Source: Myxococcales bacterium
Lineage (GTDB): Bacteria; Myxococcota; Myxococcia; Myxococcales; Anaeromyxobacteraceae
Length of the DNA stretch: 53,577 bases
Assembly: GCA_021806645.1 (NCBI GenBank)
Contig: JAJZQX010000020.1
Coordinates: 1-53,577 of the forward strand
Reading direction: 5' to 3'
Positions 38,890 to 49,695 of this stretch are shown one piece after another. The position numbers were made by a program, and so were the translations under genes. The notes under the pieces are model-generated. The model was not told where the DNA came from. It worked only from the letters and a program-made list of their open reading frames with translations, and searched no databases. The stretch's first letter is position 1, and every line of letters begins with the position of its first letter.

Positions 38890-38905
38890 TCCGAGAGGAG
38901 TGCGC

Positions 38906-40321
38906 ATGCGGCTCGACCCGGAGCTCCTGGACGGCACCGCCGCCGCGGGGGCGCGCGTGCTGGCGCTGGGCCGGTTCGCCGACGCCGAGGAGGCGGCCGC
39001 GCGGCTCGGCGACCCGGCCGACCTCGAGGCGCTGCACGACTTCCGCGTCGCGGTCCGCCGCCTCCGCTCCACGCTGCGGCTGCTGGAACCGGCGCTCGAG
39101 GGGGCGCTCACCGGGAAGCAGCTGCGACGGCTCTCCAGGTTGGCGCGGCGCACCGGGCCGGCCCGCGACGCCGAGGTGCTCATCGCCTGGCTCGGCGAGG
39201 CGCGCGGCCGGCTGGGCGCCCCGTATCGCGGCGCGCTCGACTGGCTCCTCGACCGGCTTGAGCGGCGCCGGGCCGAAGCGGCCCGCGAGGTCCTCGAGGA
39301 GGCCCTGCCCCGGTTCCGCCGCCTGGCCCCACGGCTCGCCCGCCGCCTCTCGGCCCGCCCGGCCGTCGGCGCCGGCGCGCCGACCACGCTGGCTGCGCTC
39401 CTGGCCGCCACCCTCCGCGCCCAGGCCCGCGCCCTTCGAGAGGCGCTGGCCGGTGTGATCGGCGGCGAGGACGCGCGCGGCCTGCACCAGGCCCGGATCG
39501 AGGCGAAGAGGCTGCGCTACCTCCTCGAGCCGCTGCGCACCCTCCCCGGCGCCGACGCCACGGGTGCGGTCGGCGCGCTCAAGGAGCTCCAGGAGCTGCT
39601 GGGCACCTGGCACGACCGGCACCAGGCTCGCGAGACGCTGGCCGGGGCGCTGGTGGAGGCGGCCGCCGACCGGGCCCGCCGGGGCCGCGCTGCCGGCAGC
39701 GGCGACCTCCGGCCCGGGCTGCTGGCGATCGACCAGCTGGCGGCCCGCGAGGCGGCCGAGGTCTACGACCGGCTCGCCGAGGGCTACCTGCGGTCGCGCG
39801 CCACCGCGCTCCTCGATCTCGCCTACACCGTGGTGGCGGGGCTGGAGGGGACTGCCGACGCCGACCAGGCCGCGCCGCCGGCCGCGGAGCGGCGGCTGCT
39901 CCTGACCGGGCTGCCCGCGGAGGCCACGGGTGGAGAGGTCGAGGAGTCCGAGCTGGGCTGGCTCCCGGGCGAGCGCGAGCACGTCGGGGTGGTCCGCTCG
40001 GGCCTTGGTGAGGGGTGGTTCCGCGCCCGCCCCGCGCCGCGCGGCTCGATCGAGATCGACCCGATCACCCACGCCGCCTTCCAGGCCTGGTGGCCGCTCA
40101 CCGAGGGTCGGCGGCTCGCTCGCCGCAGCCACCGGGTGGCCTCCCTCCCCGGCTGGCGCTTCGAGGAGTTCACCGACCGCCGGCTGGCGCTGGCCGTGGT
40201 GGAGCCGGGAACCGACGCCACCCCGCCGGCGTGGCTGGAGCCGGCGGTGGTCCGCGACGTGACCGGCGAGCGGGGGTACCGCGACGAGGCGCTGGCCCGC
40301 CGCGCCCCGCGCCAGGCCTGA
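38906..40321 (+). CDS. CHAD domain protein with C-terminal CYTH-like domain
   Basis: The protein has 471 residues from the ATG at 38906 (GAGGAG 5 nt upstream; a GTG at 38900 is an alternative). The N-terminal 290 residues form a CHAD helical domain with its conserved His/Arg: ALHDFRVAVRRLRSTLRLLE and GLHQARIEAKRLRYLLEPLR, a polyphosphate-binding fold. The C-terminal 150 residues look like a CYTH triphosphate tunnel domain (RRSHRVASLPGWRFEEFTD, PPAWLEPAVVRDVTGERGYR) but lack the ExExK motif (EVEESELGWL instead). CYTH usually precedes CHAD, so the order is reversed and the CYTH part may be catalytically dead. Polyphosphate binding is inferred. Confidence 0.78.
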   Translation: MRLDPELLDGTAAAGARVLALGRFADAEEAAARLGDPADLEALHDFRVAVRRLRSTLRLLEPALEGALTGKQLRRLSRLARRTGPARDAEVLIAWLGEARGRLGAPYRGALDWLLDRLERRRAEAAREVLEEALPRFRRLAPRLARRLSARPAVGAGAPTTLAALLAATLRAQARALREALAGVIGGEDARGLHQARIEAKRLRYLLEPLRTLPGADATGAVGALKELQELLGTWHDRHQARETLAGALVEAAADRARRGRAAGSGDLRPGLLAIDQLAAREAAEVYDRLAEGYLRSRATALLDLAYTVVAGLEGTADADQAAPPAAERRLLLTGLPAEATGGEVEESELGWLPGEREHVGVVRSGLGEGWFRARPAPRGSIEIDPITHAAFQAWWPLTEGRRLARRSHRVASLPGWRFEEFTDRRLALAVVEPGTDATPPAWLEPAVVRDVTGERGYRDEALARRAPRQA

Positions 40322-40363: not shown

Positions 40364-42451
40364 CTACCAGATGTCGCAGCGCTCGGCCCGGACCATGGGT
40401 GCTCCGGCCCGGCACTGGAAGGCCGCCGCGAACTGGGGGAGGTTGGAGAGCGGGCCGTTGACGCGCCACCGGGCCGACGAGTGCGGGTCGGTGACGGCGC
40501 GGAGCCGGGCGTTCTCCGGCCGGATCTGGGCGCACCAGGCCTGGGCGTGGGCCAGGAAGAACTGCTGGTCGGCGGTGAAGCCGCCCACCGGCGCCTCCTC
40601 GGGCTTCCCGGCGCGCGAGGACCGGTAGGCCGCGTAGGCCAGGGTCAGGCCGCCCAGGTCGGCGATGTTCTCGCCCAGCGTCAACTTCCCGTCGAGCGTG
40701 ACGTCGTCGATGACCGGGTAGGCGGCGTACTGCTTCACCACGCACCCGGCGCGCCGGTCGAACTCGCCGGAGACCGCCGCCGACCACCAGTCGGTGAGGT
40801 TGCCACGCGCGTCGTACTGCCGCCCCTGGTCGTCGAAGCCGTGAGTCAGCTCGTGCCCGACCACCAGGCCGATGGCGCCGTAGTTGACGGCGTCGTTGGC
40901 CCCCTGCGTGTAGAAAGGGGGCTGGAGGATTCCGGCCGGGAAGACCATCTCGTTCATGGACGGGTTGTAGTAGGCGTTCACGGTCGGCGCGGTCATGCCC
41001 CACTCGGTCCGGTCCAGCGGCTTGCCGATCTGCGCCAGCTGCCGCGTCACCTCGAAGGCGCTGGCGGCCACCGCCGAGGCCAGGAAGGCGTCGCGCCGGA
41101 CCACCAGCCCGTCATAGCTCCGCCACCTGGAGGGGTAGGCGATCTTGTTGTCCACGGCGGCCAGCTTCTCCTGCGCCTTGACGCGGGTGGCGTCGTCCAT
41201 CCAGCCGAGCCCGGCGATCCGCTTCCTCATCGCCTGCTGGATCCCGCCCACCAGCGACTCCGCCCTGGCCTTGGCCTCGCCGCCGAAGTAGCGGCGCACG
41301 AAGGCCTGCCCCAGCGCCTCGCCCATCAGCCCGTCGGTCAGGGCCACGCAGTGCTTCCAGCGCTCCGGCATGGCCTGCTCGCCGGTGAAGTGGTGGGCCC
41401 GGAACCAGAAGGCGGCGTCGCTGATCGACCGGGGCAGCGCGCGAGCCGCGGCGGCCTCGGCGAGCAGGTGCCAGCGCAGGTAGGCCCGCCAGGTGGCGGG
41501 CGGCGTGGTCTCGAGCAGGCCGTTCAGCTTCTCCAGCGCCTTCGGAGTGGTGGCGCTGAATGCGGTGACGCCACGGGTGCCCAGCGCGGCCAGGTAGCCG
41601 TCCCAGTCGAAGCGCGGCGCCACCTTCTTGAGGCCGGTGAGGTCGAGCCGGTTGTAGGTCCGCTGCGGGTCGCGCGACTCGACCCGGGTCCACTGGCTCC
41701 CGGCCATGGCGGTCTCCAGCGCCAGGATGGCCTGGGCGTCGGCGGCGGCCCTGGCCGCTGGCGACCCGGCGGCGCGCAGCTGCTTCTCCACGTAGGTGAC
41801 GAAGTCGGCGCGGATGGCGGCGCTCTTGGCGTCGGTCTTCAGGTAGTAATCGCGGTCGGGGAGCGACAGGCCGCCCTGGGCGACGTAGCCGATCACCTGC
41901 GTCGAGTCCCTGGAGTCCTGGGTCGAACCCACCGAGAAGAGCACCCCGGTCCCTTCGGCGTGGAGCCGGCCGACGGCGGCGGAGAGGCTCCGGGCGTCCT
42001 TCACCGCGGCGACCTCCTTCCACTCCGCCTGCAGCGGGGCCAGGCCGGCCTTCTCGATGGCCGGCTCGTCCATGCAGCCGGCGTAGAGGTCGGCCACCTG
42101 CTGGCCGTACCGGTCCTCCGGCGACACCCGCCCGGCCGCTGCCGGATCGAGGATGGCGCGCAGCTTCAGCTTGTTCTCCTCCCCCATCACGTTGAAGGAG
42201 CGGACCCAGCGCGACTGGTCGGCGGGGATGGGCGTCTTCTCCAGCCAGCCGCCGCAGGCGAACTCGTAGAAGTCGGCGCAGGGGTCGAGCGCCCTCTTCA
42301 CCAGCGAAGGATCGATGCCGGAGGCGGCCGGAGGCGGCGCGAACACGGCCCTGGTCGCCGCGGCCGGCGGCGTCGCGGGGGGTGGCGCGGGCGGCCGTGG
42401 AGCGGCGCAGGCGAGGGCGGCGAGGGCGGCGAGCGGCAGGGCACGGTTCAC
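40364..42451 (-). CDS. pepO: M13-family (neprilysin-like) metallopeptidase lipoprotein
   Basis: The protein has 695 residues. The N-terminus carries a lipoprotein-type signal with Cys15 after LAALA, followed by a Pro-rich stretch, so envelope anchoring is likely. The zinc site is complete: VVGHELTHGFDDQGRQYD near residue 530 and GENIADLGGLTLAY about 60 residues later, with NAYYNPSMNEMVFPAGIL before them. M13 enzymes degrade oligopeptides up to about 40 residues. Length is normal for the family (about 670-740). It converges with the CHAD gene and diverges from tgt. Confidence 0.92.
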   Translation of the reverse strand: MNRALPLAALAALACAAPRPPAPPPATPPAAATRAVFAPPPAASGIDPSLVKRALDPCADFYEFACGGWLEKTPIPADQSRWVRSFNVMGEENKLKLRAILDPAAAGRVSPEDRYGQQVADLYAGCMDEPAIEKAGLAPLQAEWKEVAAVKDARSLSAAVGRLHAEGTGVLFSVGSTQDSRDSTQVIGYVAQGGLSLPDRDYYLKTDAKSAAIRADFVTYVEKQLRAAGSPAARAAADAQAILALETAMAGSQWTRVESRDPQRTYNRLDLTGLKKVAPRFDWDGYLAALGTRGVTAFSATTPKALEKLNGLLETTPPATWRAYLRWHLLAEAAAARALPRSISDAAFWFRAHHFTGEQAMPERWKHCVALTDGLMGEALGQAFVRRYFGGEAKARAESLVGGIQQAMRKRIAGLGWMDDATRVKAQEKLAAVDNKIAYPSRWRSYDGLVVRRDAFLASAVAASAFEVTRQLAQIGKPLDRTEWGMTAPTVNAYYNPSMNEMVFPAGILQPPFYTQGANDAVNYGAIGLVVGHELTHGFDDQGRQYDARGNLTDWWSAAVSGEFDRRAGCVVKQYAAYPVIDDVTLDGKLTLGENIADLGGLTLAYAAYRSSRAGKPEEAPVGGFTADQQFFLAHAQAWCAQIRPENARLRAVTDPHSSARWRVNGPLSNLPQFAAAFQCRAGAPMVRAERCDIW

Positions 42452-42585: not shown

Positions 42586-44586
42586 ATGCCGTTCGCCTTC
42601 CAGCCCGGGGTCCGCGATGCCGAGACCCACGCCCGCCGCGGCGCCTTCACCACGCCGCACGGCCGGGTGGAGACGCCGGCCTTCATGCCGGTGGGGACGC
42701 GCGGGACGGTGACCGGCCTCACCCCCGAGGACCTGCACGGGCTCGGCGCCGAGATCATCCTCGGCAACACCTACCACCTGCTGCTCCGCCCCGGCCTCGA
42801 GGCGATGCGCCGCTTCGGCGGGCTCCACCGCTTCATGGGCTGGGACGGGCCCATCCTCACCGACTCGGGCGGCTTCCAGATCTTCTCGCTCCCGTCACAC
42901 CGGACCATCACCGAGGAAGGCGCGCGCTTCCAGAGCTACATCGACTACCGCTACCACCTGCTCACGCCGGAGAGCTCGGTGGCCATGCAGGAGGCCATCG
43001 GCTCCGACGTGATGATGGTGCTCGACGTCTGCGTCCCCTCCACCGCGGGTGAAGCGGAGATCCGCGCCGCCATGGAGCGGACCCACCGCTGGGCGCTGCG
43101 CAGCCTGGCGGCCCGCGGCAACGGCGAGCAGGCCCTCTTCGCCATCGTGCAGGGCGGCCTCTCCCCCACGCTGCGGGCCGAGTCGGCAGGCTTCCTCACC
43201 CAGCACCCCTTCGACGGCTTCGCCATCGGTGGATTGGCGGTGGGGGACACGCGCACCGAGCGGTTCGACGTGGTGGGCGCCACCGCCGGGCTCCTGCCGC
43301 CGGCGAAGCCGCGCTACCTGATGGGCGTGGGCACGCCGCCCGACCTGCTCGAGGCCATCGCCCACGGCGTCGACATGTTCGACTGCATCATCCCCACCAC
43401 CCTGGCCTGGCAGGGGACCGCCTTCACCGGCACCGGCCGGGTCCGGCTCACCCGCGCCGAGCACCGGCTCTCCGACGCGCCGCTCGACCCGGCCTGCGGC
43501 TGCCCCACCTGCCGGCGCCACCCCCGCGGCTACCTGCACCACCTGATGAAGTGCAAGGAGCCGCTCGGCCCGCGGCTGCTCTCGGTCCACAACCTGCACC
43601 ACTACCTGACGCTGATGCGCGACGCCCGCGCCGCCATCGACGCCGGCCGCTACGGCCGCTTCATGCGCGAGACCATGGCCGGCATCGACCGGCACGAGCA
43701 CGACCTCGCCGGCCGCTCCCCCGGGCGCCGCGCCGCGCCGCCGCGCGCCACCCCGGCGCCGCTCACCCCGGGCGTCCGCTTCGAGATCGTCGCTACCTCC
43801 AGCGGCGAGCCGTCGGTGCGCGACGCCGAGGCCGGCGAGGTGATGCACCCGGTGATCGGCGCGGCGGTCGAGTCGGAGCGGCTCTACGTGGCCCAGTCGC
43901 GCCTGGCCGCGCGACTCCTCGAGCCGGGGATCGGCCCGCTGGTGCTCTTCGACGTCGGCCTCGGCGCCGCCGGCAACGCGCTGGCCGCCATCCGGGCCGC
44001 CCGCGCCGCGCCCCCCGGCCACCGGCCGCTCACCGTGGTCAGCTTCGAGCGCGAGCTGGGGGCGCTGACGCTGGCCGCCTCGCCCGAAGGCGCCGCCCGG
44101 CTCGGCTGGTCGCCCCGGGACACGGCGGCGGCCGGCGCGCTGCTGCGCGACGGGCACCATGAGGAGCCGGGCCTCACCTGGCGGCTCGCGCTCGGCGACG
44201 CCCTCGAGCGGCTCGACGCCGAGCCGCTCCGCGCCGACCTCGTCTACTGGGACCCCTACTCACCGAAGGTGAACAGCGCGCTCTGGACCGCGGGGGCCTT
44301 CGCCCGCCTGGCCGACCGCTGCGCCCCCGGCGCCGCGCTCTTCACCTACTCGACCGCCACCGCCACCCGCGCCGCGCTGCTGCTGGCCGGCTTCGTGGTG
44401 GGGCACGGCGACGCCTCCGGGCCCAAGGAGGAGACCACCGCCGCGGCGCTGCCGCCGGCCCGCCCCGCCCGGCCGCTCGACGCCCGCTGGCTGGCGCGGC
44501 TGGCCCGCTCCTCGGCCCCGTTCCCCTCCGACGCCCCCCGCGACGCGCTGGGGCTGATCTCGGCGCGGCCGCAGTTCCAGGCCTAG
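42586..44586 (+). CDS. tgt: tRNA-guanine transglycosylase fused to an MnmC-like methyltransferase
   Basis: The product has 666 residues; normal bacterial Tgt has about 375. Residues 1-380 are Tgt: MPVGTRGTVTGLTPEDL, ILTDSGGFQIFSL, AIGGLAVGD, HGVDMFDCIIPTTLAWQG (nucleophilic Asp) and a zinc site CGCPTC (from about 304) with HNLHHY. The canonical RNARNG after FDC is TLAWQG and DEC is DVC, so substrate recognition may differ. After a Pro/Arg-rich linker (about 380-400) comes a Rossmann methyltransferase like MnmC/DUF752 (VLFDVGLGAAGNALAAI at about 452; DLVYWDPYSPKVNSALWT at about 551). Both modules act on wobble position 34 in known relatives. The stop codon TAG overlaps a copy of the dispersed repeat arm. 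Fusion is direct; the joint function is inferred. Confidence 0.85.
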   Translation: MPFAFQPGVRDAETHARRGAFTTPHGRVETPAFMPVGTRGTVTGLTPEDLHGLGAEIILGNTYHLLLRPGLEAMRRFGGLHRFMGWDGPILTDSGGFQIFSLPSHRTITEEGARFQSYIDYRYHLLTPESSVAMQEAIGSDVMMVLDVCVPSTAGEAEIRAAMERTHRWALRSLAARGNGEQALFAIVQGGLSPTLRAESAGFLTQHPFDGFAIGGLAVGDTRTERFDVVGATAGLLPPAKPRYLMGVGTPPDLLEAIAHGVDMFDCIIPTTLAWQGTAFTGTGRVRLTRAEHRLSDAPLDPACGCPTCRRHPRGYLHHLMKCKEPLGPRLLSVHNLHHYLTLMRDARAAIDAGRYGRFMRETMAGIDRHEHDLAGRSPGRRAAPPRATPAPLTPGVRFEIVATSSGEPSVRDAEAGEVMHPVIGAAVESERLYVAQSRLAARLLEPGIGPLVLFDVGLGAAGNALAAIRAARAAPPGHRPLTVVSFERELGALTLAASPEGAARLGWSPRDTAAAGALLRDGHHEEPGLTWRLALGDALERLDAEPLRADLVYWDPYSPKVNSALWTAGAFARLADRCAPGAALFTYSTATATRAALLLAGFVVGHGDASGPKEETTAAALPPARPARPLDARWLARLARSSAPFPSDAPRDALGLISARPQFQA

Positions 44587-46115: not shown

Positions 46116-46659
46116 GGGCGTGGCGCCGCACGCGGCGGCAACCGGTCGAGGGAGGCCCGCGGGTGTCGAGCGTCATCCCGGTCCTGGTCGGTGACACACG
46201 CGCCTGAGCTCGCCAGCAGCCACCCGGCATGGTGGGCGGGCGGCGCTCCCCAGGCCGAAATCCGTCCCCGCGGCGAGGCACGTGGGGGGCCGACCTGCTG
46301 ACGACCCCGAGAGGCGGTAGGATGGGGACACCATGAGGGCGCTCAAGGCAGGTGTGAAGGCTGGCAAGCTCCTACTCGACGGACAGACCGATCGGCTTGA
46401 CGGCGTCGAGTTCGGGGTCGCGCTCGTCGATGACGACCTCGATGACAGTGAGCAGGGCAAGCCGCGCGCCGCGATCCGGGCCGGCGAGGCCGAGTTCGAC
46501 GCGAGGCAGGCTGTCAGCGAAGGCGAGCCCTGGTCGAGGCCGCGGGCCGTCCGGTGATGCACACGTGATGCTCGGGATCGCGCCGCGCGCGGTCGACCGC
46601 TGCTATCGCTCGCCCCCGGGGCGGACTTGGGTCCCAGTCAAACGCCGCGGAGCGTGCCC
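46116..46659. other. 544-bp gap without a confident gene
   Basis: Between the TPR lipoprotein and the kinase gene nothing is certain. On the plus strand a 74-codon frame starts at ATG 46333 after GGATGGGGA (MRALKAGVKAGKLLLDGQTD) and ends at 46557. On the minus strand an overlapping frame without start reads ARLALLTVIEVVIDERDPEL and ends at 46372; its composition looks equally natural. Only one can be real; the minus one would be a C-terminal remnant. Neither family is recognised. Confidence 0.3.
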
Positions 46660-49600
46660 ATGAGCCTCCAGCTGCCCGCCCTGGACGATCGGATCGAGCT
46701 GCGCGGCCGGACCGGCTCGGGCGCCATGGGCGAGGTCTTCCGGGCCTGGGACGCGCAGCTGGAGCGAGCCGTGGCCGTGAAGTTCCAGCTGGTTGCCGAC
46801 CACCGCGAGGCGGAGCGGCTGCTCCTCGAGGCCCGCTTGCAGGCCCGCGTCGAGCACCCGAACGTCGTCAAGGTCCACGAGGTCGGGACGCTGGAGGGGC
46901 GGGTCTGCATCGTCTTCCAGCTGGTCGACGGCCCTACACTGGGTGACCTGGCCGGGACGCTCCCGCCTGGTGAGCGGGTCGAGCTGCTGCGGCAGGCGGC
47001 CCTCGGCCTGCACGCCGCCCACCTGCAGGGGCTGGTGCACCGCGACGTCAAGCCGGGCAACGTGCTGGTCGAGGAGGGGCTGGACGGGAAGCAACGGGCG
47101 CTGCTGGGGGACTTCGGCCTGGCCCGCGCGGAGGAGGGCGGCCTCTCGCGCACCGGCGTGCCGGCCGGGACGCTCGACTACATGAGCCCGGAGCAGCTGC
47201 TCGGCAGTGGACCCGTCGACTTCCGCTCCGACGTCTACGGGCTGGGGGCGACGCTGTACGCGTTGCTGGCCGGGCGCCCCCCCTTCCGCACCAGCGCGTC
47301 TCCGGAAGGCGACGACTCCTCCGGGCTCTTCCGCCGCGTGCTGGAGGATGCCCCGGAGCCGCTGCACCGCGCCGCCCCCGGCACGCCGCGCGAGCTGGGG
47401 CTGGTGGCCGCCAAGGCGATGGAGAAGAGCCCGGCCGAGCGCTACCCTAGCGCCGAGGCCTTCGCCGAGGAGCTGGCCCGCTCTCTGGCCGGTGAGCCGG
47501 TCAGGGCCCGCCCGCCCAGCCAGGCCGAGCGTGTCGTGAAGTGGGCGCGGCGCAACCGCGTCGCGGCAAGGGCCCTTGGAGTGGCCGGCGCGACCATCCT
47601 GGCCGCCGCCGGGCTGGCCGCCTGGTCGTCGCGACAGGCCTCCCTCCAGGCGCTCGAGGCGGCTCGTCTCGGCGCCCAGGCGGAGCAGATGGTGAGCCTG
47701 CTCCGCACCGAGGAGCTGCTCCCCGCGCACGACCTCACCCCGACCTACGACCGGATCCGCGCCGTGATCGAGCGGGTGTCGGGCGGACCGGCCTCGGTCG
47801 CGGCCGGCGCCTCGGCGTTCACGCAGGGGCGCGGCCACCAACTTCTCGGCGAGCCGCGTGAGGCGCACCGGCACCTGGAGCGGGCCTGGGCGCTCGGCTT
47901 CCGTGGGCCCGAGGTGGCGCTGGCGCTCGGCGAGGTCGAGGGGCAGCTCTACGCGCAGGAACTGCTCGCCCTCGGGCGCTTCGACGATCCGGCCCGCAAG
48001 CAGGAACGGGTCGAGGCGCTGGCGAGGCGCTACCGTGACCCGGCGGTGCAGCGGTTGCGCGGCCTGGCTGTGGCCGGCGAGGCCGAGCGGCTGCTGAACG
48101 CGGCGCGCCTGGCCGTGGTGGAGGAGCGCTTCGACGAGGCGGCCACGCAGGCCCGGCAGGCGTTTGAGGCGGGCGCCAACCCGCTCGACGCCGGCGCGCT
48201 GGAGGGGCGGGCCCTGCTCGACGGGGCCTGGGCCCTGTACGAGCAGCGCGACATCCCCGGCACCGCGACGCGGGCGGCGGCGGCGCGCGCCTCGCTGGAG
48301 CGGACCATCCAGGTGGGCCGTAGCGCGCCCGGGCCCCGGCTCCTGCTGGCCCGGGCCCGGCTCCTGCAGTATCGGCTCGAGGCTCACGGCGCGGGGCTCC
48401 GGCTCGAGCCGCTCGACGGGCTGCTGCTGCTGCTGCGCGAGACCGAGGCCATCCACCCCGGCAACGCCGAGCTCCGAGTGGTCTGGTCGGCGGTCGAGGT
48501 GGCCCGGGGAGATGCGCTGCTGGCCGCGGGCCGGGACCCGGAGCCGGCCATGCGCGCCGCCGTGGCCCAGGCCGAGCGCGGGGTCGCGGTCGCGGGCGAC
48601 CGTCGCCAGCCGCTGCTCCAGCTCGCCAACGCCTGCGCTTTCCTGGCCATCCGCATCGCCGACACCGGCGGGGATCCGCGTGCCGTCTTCGAGCAGGGCG
48701 TGGCCGCGGCCGAGGGAGCCCGCGCCCTGGCACCGGAGTCGCACGGCCCGTACTTCAACCTCGCCTACCTGCGAACGGCCCGGGCCAACTGGTTCCTGGT
48801 CCGCGGCGAGGACGCCCGCGCCGAGGCCGAGGGTGCCCTGGCCGATGCACGGAAGATGCTCGAGATCGGGGCCCGGCCCATCATGGCCCGACTCATGGTG
48901 GCCGAGGCGCTCGAGGCGCTGGGCGTGGCGCGCTGGCGGGCCGGCGGGGAGGCCGACGCCCCGCTGGCCGAGGGGCTCGAGCAGGTCAGGCAGGCCACGG
49001 CGCAGGCGCCGCGCGACTGGTCGGCGCGGGCCACAGGGATCCAGCTGAGCGCCACCTGGGCCGAGCTGGCGCTGGCCGAGGGGCGGGTGGCCACGGCGGC
49101 CTTCGACGCCGGGTTGCCGCTGGCCGAGGCGCTGCTGCCGCTGGCCAGGGAGAACGCGACGTGGGGCGGGCTGGTGGGCAGGATCTACCTCCAGCGCAGC
49201 CGGGCCGAGCTGCTGCAGGGGCGCGACCCGGCGGCCTGGCTCGGCCGCGCCCAGCCGCTGCTGCTGGCCGCGGCGCGCATCCAGCCGGGCGCCCACGCCG
49301 CGCTCGGCGAGGCCGAGCTGACCCGCGCCGCCTGGAGCGCCCGGACCGGCGGCGACCCGGGGCCGGCGCTTCGCCGGGCCCGCGTCGAGGGGCAGCGGCT
49401 CGCCGCGGCCGACGCGCGGGCAGCGGAGGGGCCGCTGCTCGAGGCCCGCGCCCTGTCCGATGTGGCGCAACCGCCCCGCCACCAGCTCGAGCTGGCCCTG
49501 GCGGCCGCCTCGCGAGCGGTGGCGCTCGACGGGCGCCGGCCCCAGTCCAGGCTGGTCGAGGCCCGGCTGAGGCTGGCGCTCGGCGACCGGGACGGAGCGC

Positions 49601-49695
49601 GTGCCTCCCTGGAGCGGGCCGCCGAGCTGCAGCCGCGCCTGGCCGGGCTCGCCGCGCTGCAGGCCGCCCTGGAGGGTGCTCCCGCCCGTCCCTAG
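46660..49695 (+). CDS. Ser/Thr protein kinase with single membrane span and extracytoplasmic TPR region
   Basis: The protein has 1011 residues from ATG 46660. Kinase motifs: RTGSGAMGEVF glycine loop, Lys41 in VAVKFQL, HRDVKPGN (about 127), DFGLARA (about 151), and GTLDYMSPEQ activation segment, so it is likely active. A transmembrane segment (LGVAGATILAAAGLAAW, about 305-325) separates it from about 690 residues of TPR-like helical repeats (EEAATQARQAFEAGANPLD-like units, WSARATGIQLSATWAELALA) ending at residue 1011. This architecture is common in Myxococcota and suggests a sensor whose outer repeats bind protein partners. No adjacent phosphatase or substrate gene indicates its target. Confidence 0.88.
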   Translation: MSLQLPALDDRIELRGRTGSGAMGEVFRAWDAQLERAVAVKFQLVADHREAERLLLEARLQARVEHPNVVKVHEVGTLEGRVCIVFQLVDGPTLGDLAGTLPPGERVELLRQAALGLHAAHLQGLVHRDVKPGNVLVEEGLDGKQRALLGDFGLARAEEGGLSRTGVPAGTLDYMSPEQLLGSGPVDFRSDVYGLGATLYALLAGRPPFRTSASPEGDDSSGLFRRVLEDAPEPLHRAAPGTPRELGLVAAKAMEKSPAERYPSAEAFAEELARSLAGEPVRARPPSQAERVVKWARRNRVAARALGVAGATILAAAGLAAWSSRQASLQALEAARLGAQAEQMVSLLRTEELLPAHDLTPTYDRIRAVIERVSGGPASVAAGASAFTQGRGHQLLGEPREAHRHLERAWALGFRGPEVALALGEVEGQLYAQELLALGRFDDPARKQERVEALARRYRDPAVQRLRGLAVAGEAERLLNAARLAVVEERFDEAATQARQAFEAGANPLDAGALEGRALLDGAWALYEQRDIPGTATRAAAARASLERTIQVGRSAPGPRLLLARARLLQYRLEAHGAGLRLEPLDGLLLLLRETEAIHPGNAELRVVWSAVEVARGDALLAAGRDPEPAMRAAVAQAERGVAVAGDRRQPLLQLANACAFLAIRIADTGGDPRAVFEQGVAAAEGARALAPESHGPYFNLAYLRTARANWFLVRGEDARAEAEGALADARKMLEIGARPIMARLMVAEALEALGVARWRAGGEADAPLAEGLEQVRQATAQAPRDWSARATGIQLSATWAELALAEGRVATAAFDAGLPLAEALLPLARENATWGGLVGRIYLQRSRAELLQGRDPAAWLGRAQPLLLAAARIQPGAHAALGEAELTRAAWSARTGGDPGPALRRARVEGQRLAAADARAAEGPLLEARALSDVAQPPRHQLELALAAASRAVALDGRRPQSRLVEARLRLALGDRDGARASLERAAELQPRLAGLAALQAALEGAPARP

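Follow-up and report, generated by a model that had tools for sequence, protein, structure and literature searches.

A Tgt paralogue coupled to an MnmC2-like methyltransferase in Myxococcota and other bacteria: a candidate source of N-methyl-preQ1 in tRNA

One gene of the window (the whole 53,577-nucleotide stretch of Myxococcales DNA analysed here) encodes a Tgt domain fused to an MnmC2-like methyltransferase. The two belong to a real, conserved Tgt subfamily, named here Tgt2, and its partner methyltransferase, for which the open-licence literature, as covered by titles and the beginnings of abstracts, yields no description. The coupling of Tgt2 to the methyltransferase is strongly supported. 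We lean towards the hypothesis that the fusion is a bifunctional enzyme whose Tgt2 domain would insert preQ1 in a non-queuosine tRNA and whose methyltransferase would then N-methylate it, giving N-methyl-preQ1. The wider proposal, that Tgt2 and its methyltransferase make this undescribed nucleoside in a non-queuosine tRNA, at its wobble position, across Myxococcota, Riflebacteria, Oligoflexia and Verrucomicrobia, is advanced more tentatively, as a possibility with somewhat less than an even claim.

The initial annotation described one frame of 666 residues composed of a Tgt, with its zinc site and nucleophilic Asp, followed by a methyltransferase of MnmC/DUF752 type; translation, which gives a single stop-free frame, Pfam and alignment confirm this organization (Table 1). 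Among NCBIfam models the fusion passes Q_tRNA_tgt (TIGR00430) with 436.5 bits against a cut-off of 306.75 and stays below tRNA_MNMC2 (NF033855) with 70.2 bits against a cut-off of 136. Both fusions scanned lie above the NCBI Tgt cut-off and under that of MnmC2, which means that the name Tgt probably conceals the activity. The AlphaFold2 model of the whole fusion has a mean pLDDT of 85.2 and a pTM of 0.57; with this pTM and a linker of pLDDT under 50, the domains are well predicted and their mutual placement is not fixed. Residues 1-369 of the model superpose on the Z. mobilis TGT 4dxx with Z 49.6 and rmsd 1.7 over 363 residues. The structural matches listed for the whole model are all Tgt rows, and the methyltransferase (43750-44583) was modelled separately, reaching a pLDDT of 92.5. 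Its best match is the A. aeolicus MnmC2 3vyw (Z 26.6, rmsd 3.1, 244 residues), followed by the MnmC of E. coli and Y. pestis (Z 23.8 to 20.9) and then by spermidine synthases (Z 17.8 and below). Neighbours in the window are a CHAD-domain protein (38900-40321, + strand), an M13 peptidase (40364-42451, - strand) and a protein kinase with an extended C-terminal region (46627-49695, + strand), none with an apparent tie to the fusion.

Table 1. Features of the Tgt2-methyltransferase fusion gene, in positions of the window.
Feature	Position	Strand	Basis
Tgt2-methyltransferase fusion gene	42586..44586	+	666 aa plus stop
Tgt domain PF01702, residues 16-365	42631..43680	+	Pfam E 3.9e-146
GGLAVG, preQ1-type pocket, residues 215-220	43228..43245	+	alignment; motif meaning from PMC10723273
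Nucleophile Asp266 (= Z. mobilis Asp280)	43381..43383	+	alignment
TLAWQG, residues 272-277, replacing canonical R-x-A-R-N-G	43399..43416	+	alignment
Zinc site C304, C306, C309, H335	43495..43590	+	alignment
Disordered linker, residues 374-395	43705..43770	+	pLDDT under 50
Methyltransferase domain, MnmC2-like	43771..44583	+	PF05430 and structure model
GEVMH, residues 417-421: Glu for MnmC Asp26, Met for MnmC Tyr28	43834..43848	+	
PF05430 (Methyltransf_30) match, residues 529-622	44170-44451	+	Pfam E 6e-18
Asp556, aligned to MnmC Asp178 (proposed amine-activating base)	44251..44253	+	alignment

The host genome (4.14 Mb in 33 contigs, completeness 98.99%) yields two TGT matches, the fusion and a second Tgt (G000:C27:82757-83896), and a single PF05430 match, which is the fusion itself. 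The second Tgt is canonical, with the motifs DECPP and TRCARNG, and is encoded downstream of queA. Profile searches also find QueF (1.6e-36), QueA (2.2e-124) and QueC (8.1e-74); the transporter family PF02592 is not found in this genome. The second, canonical tgt with Q-pathway genes that the initial annotation had asked about is thus present in the host, here with queA, queC and queF. The idea therefore survives the genomic half of that annotation's refuting condition, a host lacking all preQ1/Q genes, and the Tgt of the fusion is a paralogue. A frame with a PilZ domain (6.8e-6; L032:818-1435) lies between queA and the canonical tgt.

Linkage of the two proteins was followed from the methyltransferase side. 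A contig scan with A1, a methyltransferase profile of 8 rows built from Tgt2 pairs, confirmed 277 relatives, the best 80 of which were analysed as loci; since A1 derives from Tgt2 pairs, these 80 are the likeliest to be paired, and the linkage figures cover these only. A Tgt is found in the same frame in 23 loci, directly upstream in 45 and is absent from 12, and where it is fused or upstream it is equally altered. The 45 upstream Tgts are on the same strand, 44 of them with 0 to 111 bases between the domain matches (the gap in L112 is not measurable). Six of the 12 loci lacking a Tgt begin at most 132 bases from the locus edge (L082, L090, L106, L126, L134, L156). For five of the remaining loci a Tgt2 is found at another place in the genome: outside the locus for L139 and L143 (L207, L208), as a fused pair for L128 (L193), and in L191 and L192 for L146 and L155. 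The exception is L124, in whose genome only a canonical Tgt is found. The fused methyltransferase of L191 and L192 is cut short and has no DPxSP motif, and the same genomes hold an intact separate copy (L146, L155). One of the in-frame fusions comes from a complete genome, that of Anaeromyxobacter oryzae (L083). Neither an assembly error, which the initial annotation had considered, nor chance accounts for a fusion that recurs in 23 of 80 loci, one of them in a complete genome. On the methyltransferase tree fused pairs intermingle with unfused ones, with 5 changes of the fused label.

The titles of the locus records name Myxococcota genera, Oligoflexia, Verrucomicrobia, Riflebacteria and two Planctomycetota MAGs; Myxococcus, Nannocystis and Anaeromyxobacter are culturable genera among them. 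Anaeromyxobacter gives the best matches to the host among records that carry a name. The Planctomycetota rows sit among Anaeromyxobacter-type rows, so transfer or misbinning is possible. Four loci titled Comamonas, Akkermansia or Planctomycetota (L159, L144, L093, L097) have sequences like those of other groups, L159 with a Myxococcaceae motif; their labels may be wrong or the genes transferred.

At the genome level, TGT matches were counted as places, a number that split genes can inflate. Among 60 relatives, a PF05430 match of 1.7e-12 or better is found in 33, and 32 of these have at least two TGT places; the one that does not, G023, contains the fusion in a genome that is 66% complete. One TGT place or none is found in 25 of the remaining 27 relatives. 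In G001 a Tgt2 lies on a contig that ends before any methyltransferase could follow (L065), and the second TGT place of G014 is partial. A wider set of 116 Myxococcota genomes, mostly of one family, was searched with A1 and PF01702. All 68 genomes with a strong A1 match (2.9e-48 or better) have at least two TGT places, and 46 of the other 48 have one or none (Fisher p 2e-30, a value that ignores shared descent). Of the two exceptions, G109 has two Tgt pieces on different contigs, the single readable motif being canonical, and G145 has a true Tgt2 (KMAQQG) as its second Tgt, with no methyltransferase found in its 800-contig draft. Six genomes have only weak, MnmC-like A1 matches (1.1e-24 to 5.4e-7) and one Tgt each. 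Within families both members of the pair are missing jointly, for example in G008 (f1) and in G042 and G148 (f4).

The Tgt tree was built only from genomes searched here, with 91 of 159 distinct rows after near copies were left out. Tgt pieces shorter than 300 residues were excluded from both the tree and the residue counts, and five rows whose motif was not read count as Tgt2. A branch with an SH-aLRT support of 100 separates the 54 Tgt2 rows from the 37 canonical ones, a picture that sequences from other phyla could still change. Residues were counted over 55 canonical and 104 Tgt2 rows in Z. mobilis numbering; rows were labelled by residue 286, which makes the split at R286 circular, and the tree was made without this label. 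Asp102, Asp156, Gln203, Gly230, Val233, Met260, Asp280 and Cys318/320/323 are kept in 104/104 Tgt2 rows, and His349 (one gap) and Cys158 in 103/104. Conversely, Arg289 is present in 55/55 canonical and 0/104 Tgt2 rows, Asn290 in 50/55 and 0/104, and Lys52 in 55/55 and 10/104 (five gaps). The fusion itself lacks the canonical Arg286, Arg289 and Asn290, and has Asp in place of E235 like 63 of the 104 Tgt2 rows. Tgt2 thus shares with bacterial Tgt (TIGR00430; Z. mobilis and T. maritima structures) the fold, the nucleophile, the zinc site and the preQ1 pocket, and differs from it by the replacement of R286, R289, N290 and mostly K52, by a fused or adjacent methyltransferase and by its presence beside a canonical Tgt in the host. 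A spare queuosine Tgt acting on the usual four tRNAs, to which an unrelated methyltransferase became attached, would explain why the fusion passes the Q_tRNA_tgt cut-off. We hold this highly improbable: Tgt2 is a separate clade that has lost R289 in every row, a canonical Tgt is also in the host, and at least two TGT places are found in 24 of the 28 genomes behind the loci.

The kept residues bear on the inserted base. The choice of pocket residues follows PMC5395182. According to PMC3660597, Cys158 and Val233 largely separate preQ1-using from queuine-using enzymes and E235 belongs to the preQ1 peptide switch, and PMC10723273 assigns GGLAVG to the preQ1 type. The fusion protein has both GGLAVG and Cys149. 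The preQ1 pocket being kept, the inserted base is probably still preQ1; queuine is disfavoured by C158 and V233. The Asp at position 235 weighs against preQ1.

The initial annotation had singled out two altered motifs, TLAWQG and DVC, and suggested that the base or the tRNA may differ. The first motif stands as diagnostic and the second does not: position 157 also varies among the 55 canonical Tgts (E 46, H 5, V 3, Q 1; E in 7/104 Tgt2 rows), which led us to reject DVC as a sign of a changed base. As judged from the aligned rows, the change that marks Tgt2 is that of the RNARNG motif. Of the two suggested differences, a change of tRNA is the likelier, and a change of base is disfavoured by the kept pocket. 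R286 and R289, which in the structure of the Z. mobilis complex we take to touch the anticodon loop, have changed together with N290, and this makes a new RNA target the likelier of the two. PMC5395182 places Arg286 in an inactive dimer, at an intersubunit cavity that joins the two ribose-34/phosphate-35 pockets, and the motif change might concern the dimer instead. The altered R289, N290 and, mostly, K52 of the clade, with the Asp at 235 in 63/104 rows, would also suit a Tgt2 that inserts another 7-deazaguanine or targets rRNA or DNA, the methyltransferase modifying that product. This is distinctly unlikely in our view, since the preQ1 pocket is otherwise intact and the pair is kept in genomes without QueF or a strong QueC match, 10 of 12 of which have a precursor transporter (see below). 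A weaker point against it is that no PHROGs or PADLOC match is obtained at E 0.01, a search made with no positive control and in libraries that may lack a DpdA model.

The methyltransferase keeps the catalytic features of MnmC2. In PMC3648344, Glu101 is proposed as the SAM anchor and Asp178, invariant in MnmC2, as the base activating the amino group of nm5U. Their equivalents in the methyltransferase (METHYLTRANSFERASE) are E97 and D165 in A1, and E488 and D556 in the fusion protein (P0001); neither residue varies across the 8 rows of A1 or the 18 rows of A3. An invariant Glu occupies the position of MnmC Asp26 in the methyltransferase alignment, and the position of Tyr28 is Met in 8/8 A1 and 18/18 A3 rows; the comparison is with the A. 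aeolicus and Y. pestis chains (Tyr), and Tyr28 is not known as required for MnmC2. The enzyme is therefore like MnmC2/MnmD (DUF752, PF05430; A. aeolicus 3vyw, E. coli MnmC) in its fold, SAM Glu and amine-activating Asp, and unlike them in having Met for Tyr28, a score under the NCBIfam cut-off and a Tgt instead of MnmC1 as partner. On the methyltransferase tree (66 rows) the MH-type branch, supported at 89/99, leaves out the three MnmC2 references and the two MnmD-like rows; the bootstrap is under the usual 95 and long branches are flagged.

An ordinary MnmC2/MnmD, converting nm5U34 to mnm5U34 and tied to Tgt2 by shared binding of the anticodon arm on different tRNAs, is an unlikely explanation, though the foremost among the alternatives. 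It fits the nearest solved relatives, which are MnmC2, and the single PF05430 protein of the host; according to PMC3648344, MnmC2 can use the nm5U made by MnmEG with no need of MnmC1. Such an enzyme would have no need for a Tgt paralogue, yet a second Tgt is present in 68/68 genomes with a strong match, and the six genomes with weaker, MnmC-like matches have one Tgt each. Moreover, G079 (L212, one frame) and G074 (L210, broken across two frames) have an MnmD-like YHS-type enzyme together with an MH-type one and Tgt2. The uniform Met at the Tyr28 position also speaks against it. So do the scores under the MnmC2 cut-off, a criterion that alone decides little because the MnmD-like L211 is likewise under it (97.6 bits). 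Counting against the main reading, MH-type methyltransferases are also found away from Tgt2 (L221, L222, L223, L124, L128, L146, L155), and G065 has one although only a canonical Tgt is found there; the group may thus have another role. In some of these seven loci DFYSP, DLYSS or DPYSA replaces DPFSP.

We propose the following mechanism for the fusion. The Tgt2 domain would excise guanine, form a covalent tRNA-Asp266 intermediate and insert preQ1 (7-aminomethyl-7-deazaguanine), as the kept residues and the established enzymology of Tgt suggest. Next, the MnmC2-like domain would methylate preQ1 once it is in place, at its primary aminomethyl group and by means of SAM and Asp556, a step modelled on MnmC2 acting on 5-aminomethyluridine. 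As this aminomethyl is the chemical kind of group that MnmC2 methylates, a concrete product can be named: 7-(methylaminomethyl)-7-deazaguanosine, or N-methyl-preQ1. Its presence would prevent QueA from forming Q at the position concerned. The canonical Tgt already serves the Q pathway and Tgt2 has lost R289 and N290, so that Tgt2 most likely acts on a non-GUN tRNA. The methylation of the preQ1 amine, the order of the steps and the non-GUN target are inferred. The initial annotation's two-step modification by one enzyme gains support from the linkage across groups and from the canonical tgt of the host. The order could be the reverse, with methylation of free preQ1 and insertion of N-methyl-preQ1 by Tgt2. 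The linkage data are the same for both orders, which lead to one product; this order is very unlikely nonetheless, as the Tgt2 pocket has no enlargement at V233 or C158 and the studied relative MnmC works on tRNA (PMC3648344).

If the proposal is true, the queuosine family gains a new nucleoside and a Tgt paralogue has been retargeted to another RNA, with preQ1 kept and the reading changed. Cells making Q in parallel with their canonical Tgt would then run two 7-deazaguanine wobble systems. The MnmC2 fold would be used on a deazapurine amine, and the product would be the RNA counterpart of the methylated preQ1 of phage DNA. There, Cui (2023) is reported to have described DpdA accompanied by a dPreQ1 methyltransferase, DpdM, acting on DNA with a methylase of another fold. 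This pair would likewise combine a guanine transglycosylase with N-methylation of preQ1. A phage origin finds no support: a viral scan gave 30 pattern matches, none of them a methyltransferase relative by tblastn, and the PHROGs and PADLOC searches, run with no positive control, gave no match at E 0.01. For the queuosine family, a 2020 review of natural ribonucleosides (PMC7694415) lists preQ0, preQ1, oQ, Q, GalQ, ManQ, GluQ and G+, with no methylated preQ1 among them. Titles and abstract beginnings in the open-licence literature likewise mention neither a fusion of Tgt with a methyltransferase nor N-methyl-preQ1 as a tRNA nucleoside. Papers that contain 'methylated preQ1' or 'methyl preQ1' have abstracts that open on riboswitches and ribozymes, one naming O6-methyl preQ1.

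The supply of preQ1 differs among relatives. QueF is missing from 12 of 59 genomes (G081-G087, G073, G076, G080, G074, G079; loci L112, L121, L123, L150, L102, L120, L122, L145, L149, L158, L146, L155), none of which has a strong QueC match, though they bear the pair. PF02592, the Q-precursor transporter family, is found in 10 of these 12, compared with 8 of 24 other genomes searched for it. A QueA match is present in 10/12 (weak in G082) and at least two TGT places in 9/12. In all three Riflebacteria loci (L145, L149, L158) the PF02592 gene adjoins the fusion in divergent orientation. This suggests salvage of preQ1 as the simplest supply in QueF-less genomes with PF02592. The twelve must in any case obtain preQ1 otherwise, including G084 and G086, in which PF02592 is not found either. 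G073 and G085 have the pair and PF02592, no QueA found and one Tgt each, possibly a gap of draft genomes. PreQ0 is disfavoured as the inserted base, as it has no amine to methylate and 12 of the 59 genomes searched bear the pair with neither QueF nor a strong QueC match. A second QueA paralogue was considered as a third partner and rejected: the host does not have it, and G035, which does, yields a single Tgt and no methyltransferase. This second, weaker QueA-like PF02547 match (1e-58 to 5e-39), in a longer frame and not tied to Tgt2, occurs in G024, G035, G048, G050, G058, G062, G063, G064, G069, G071 and G087.
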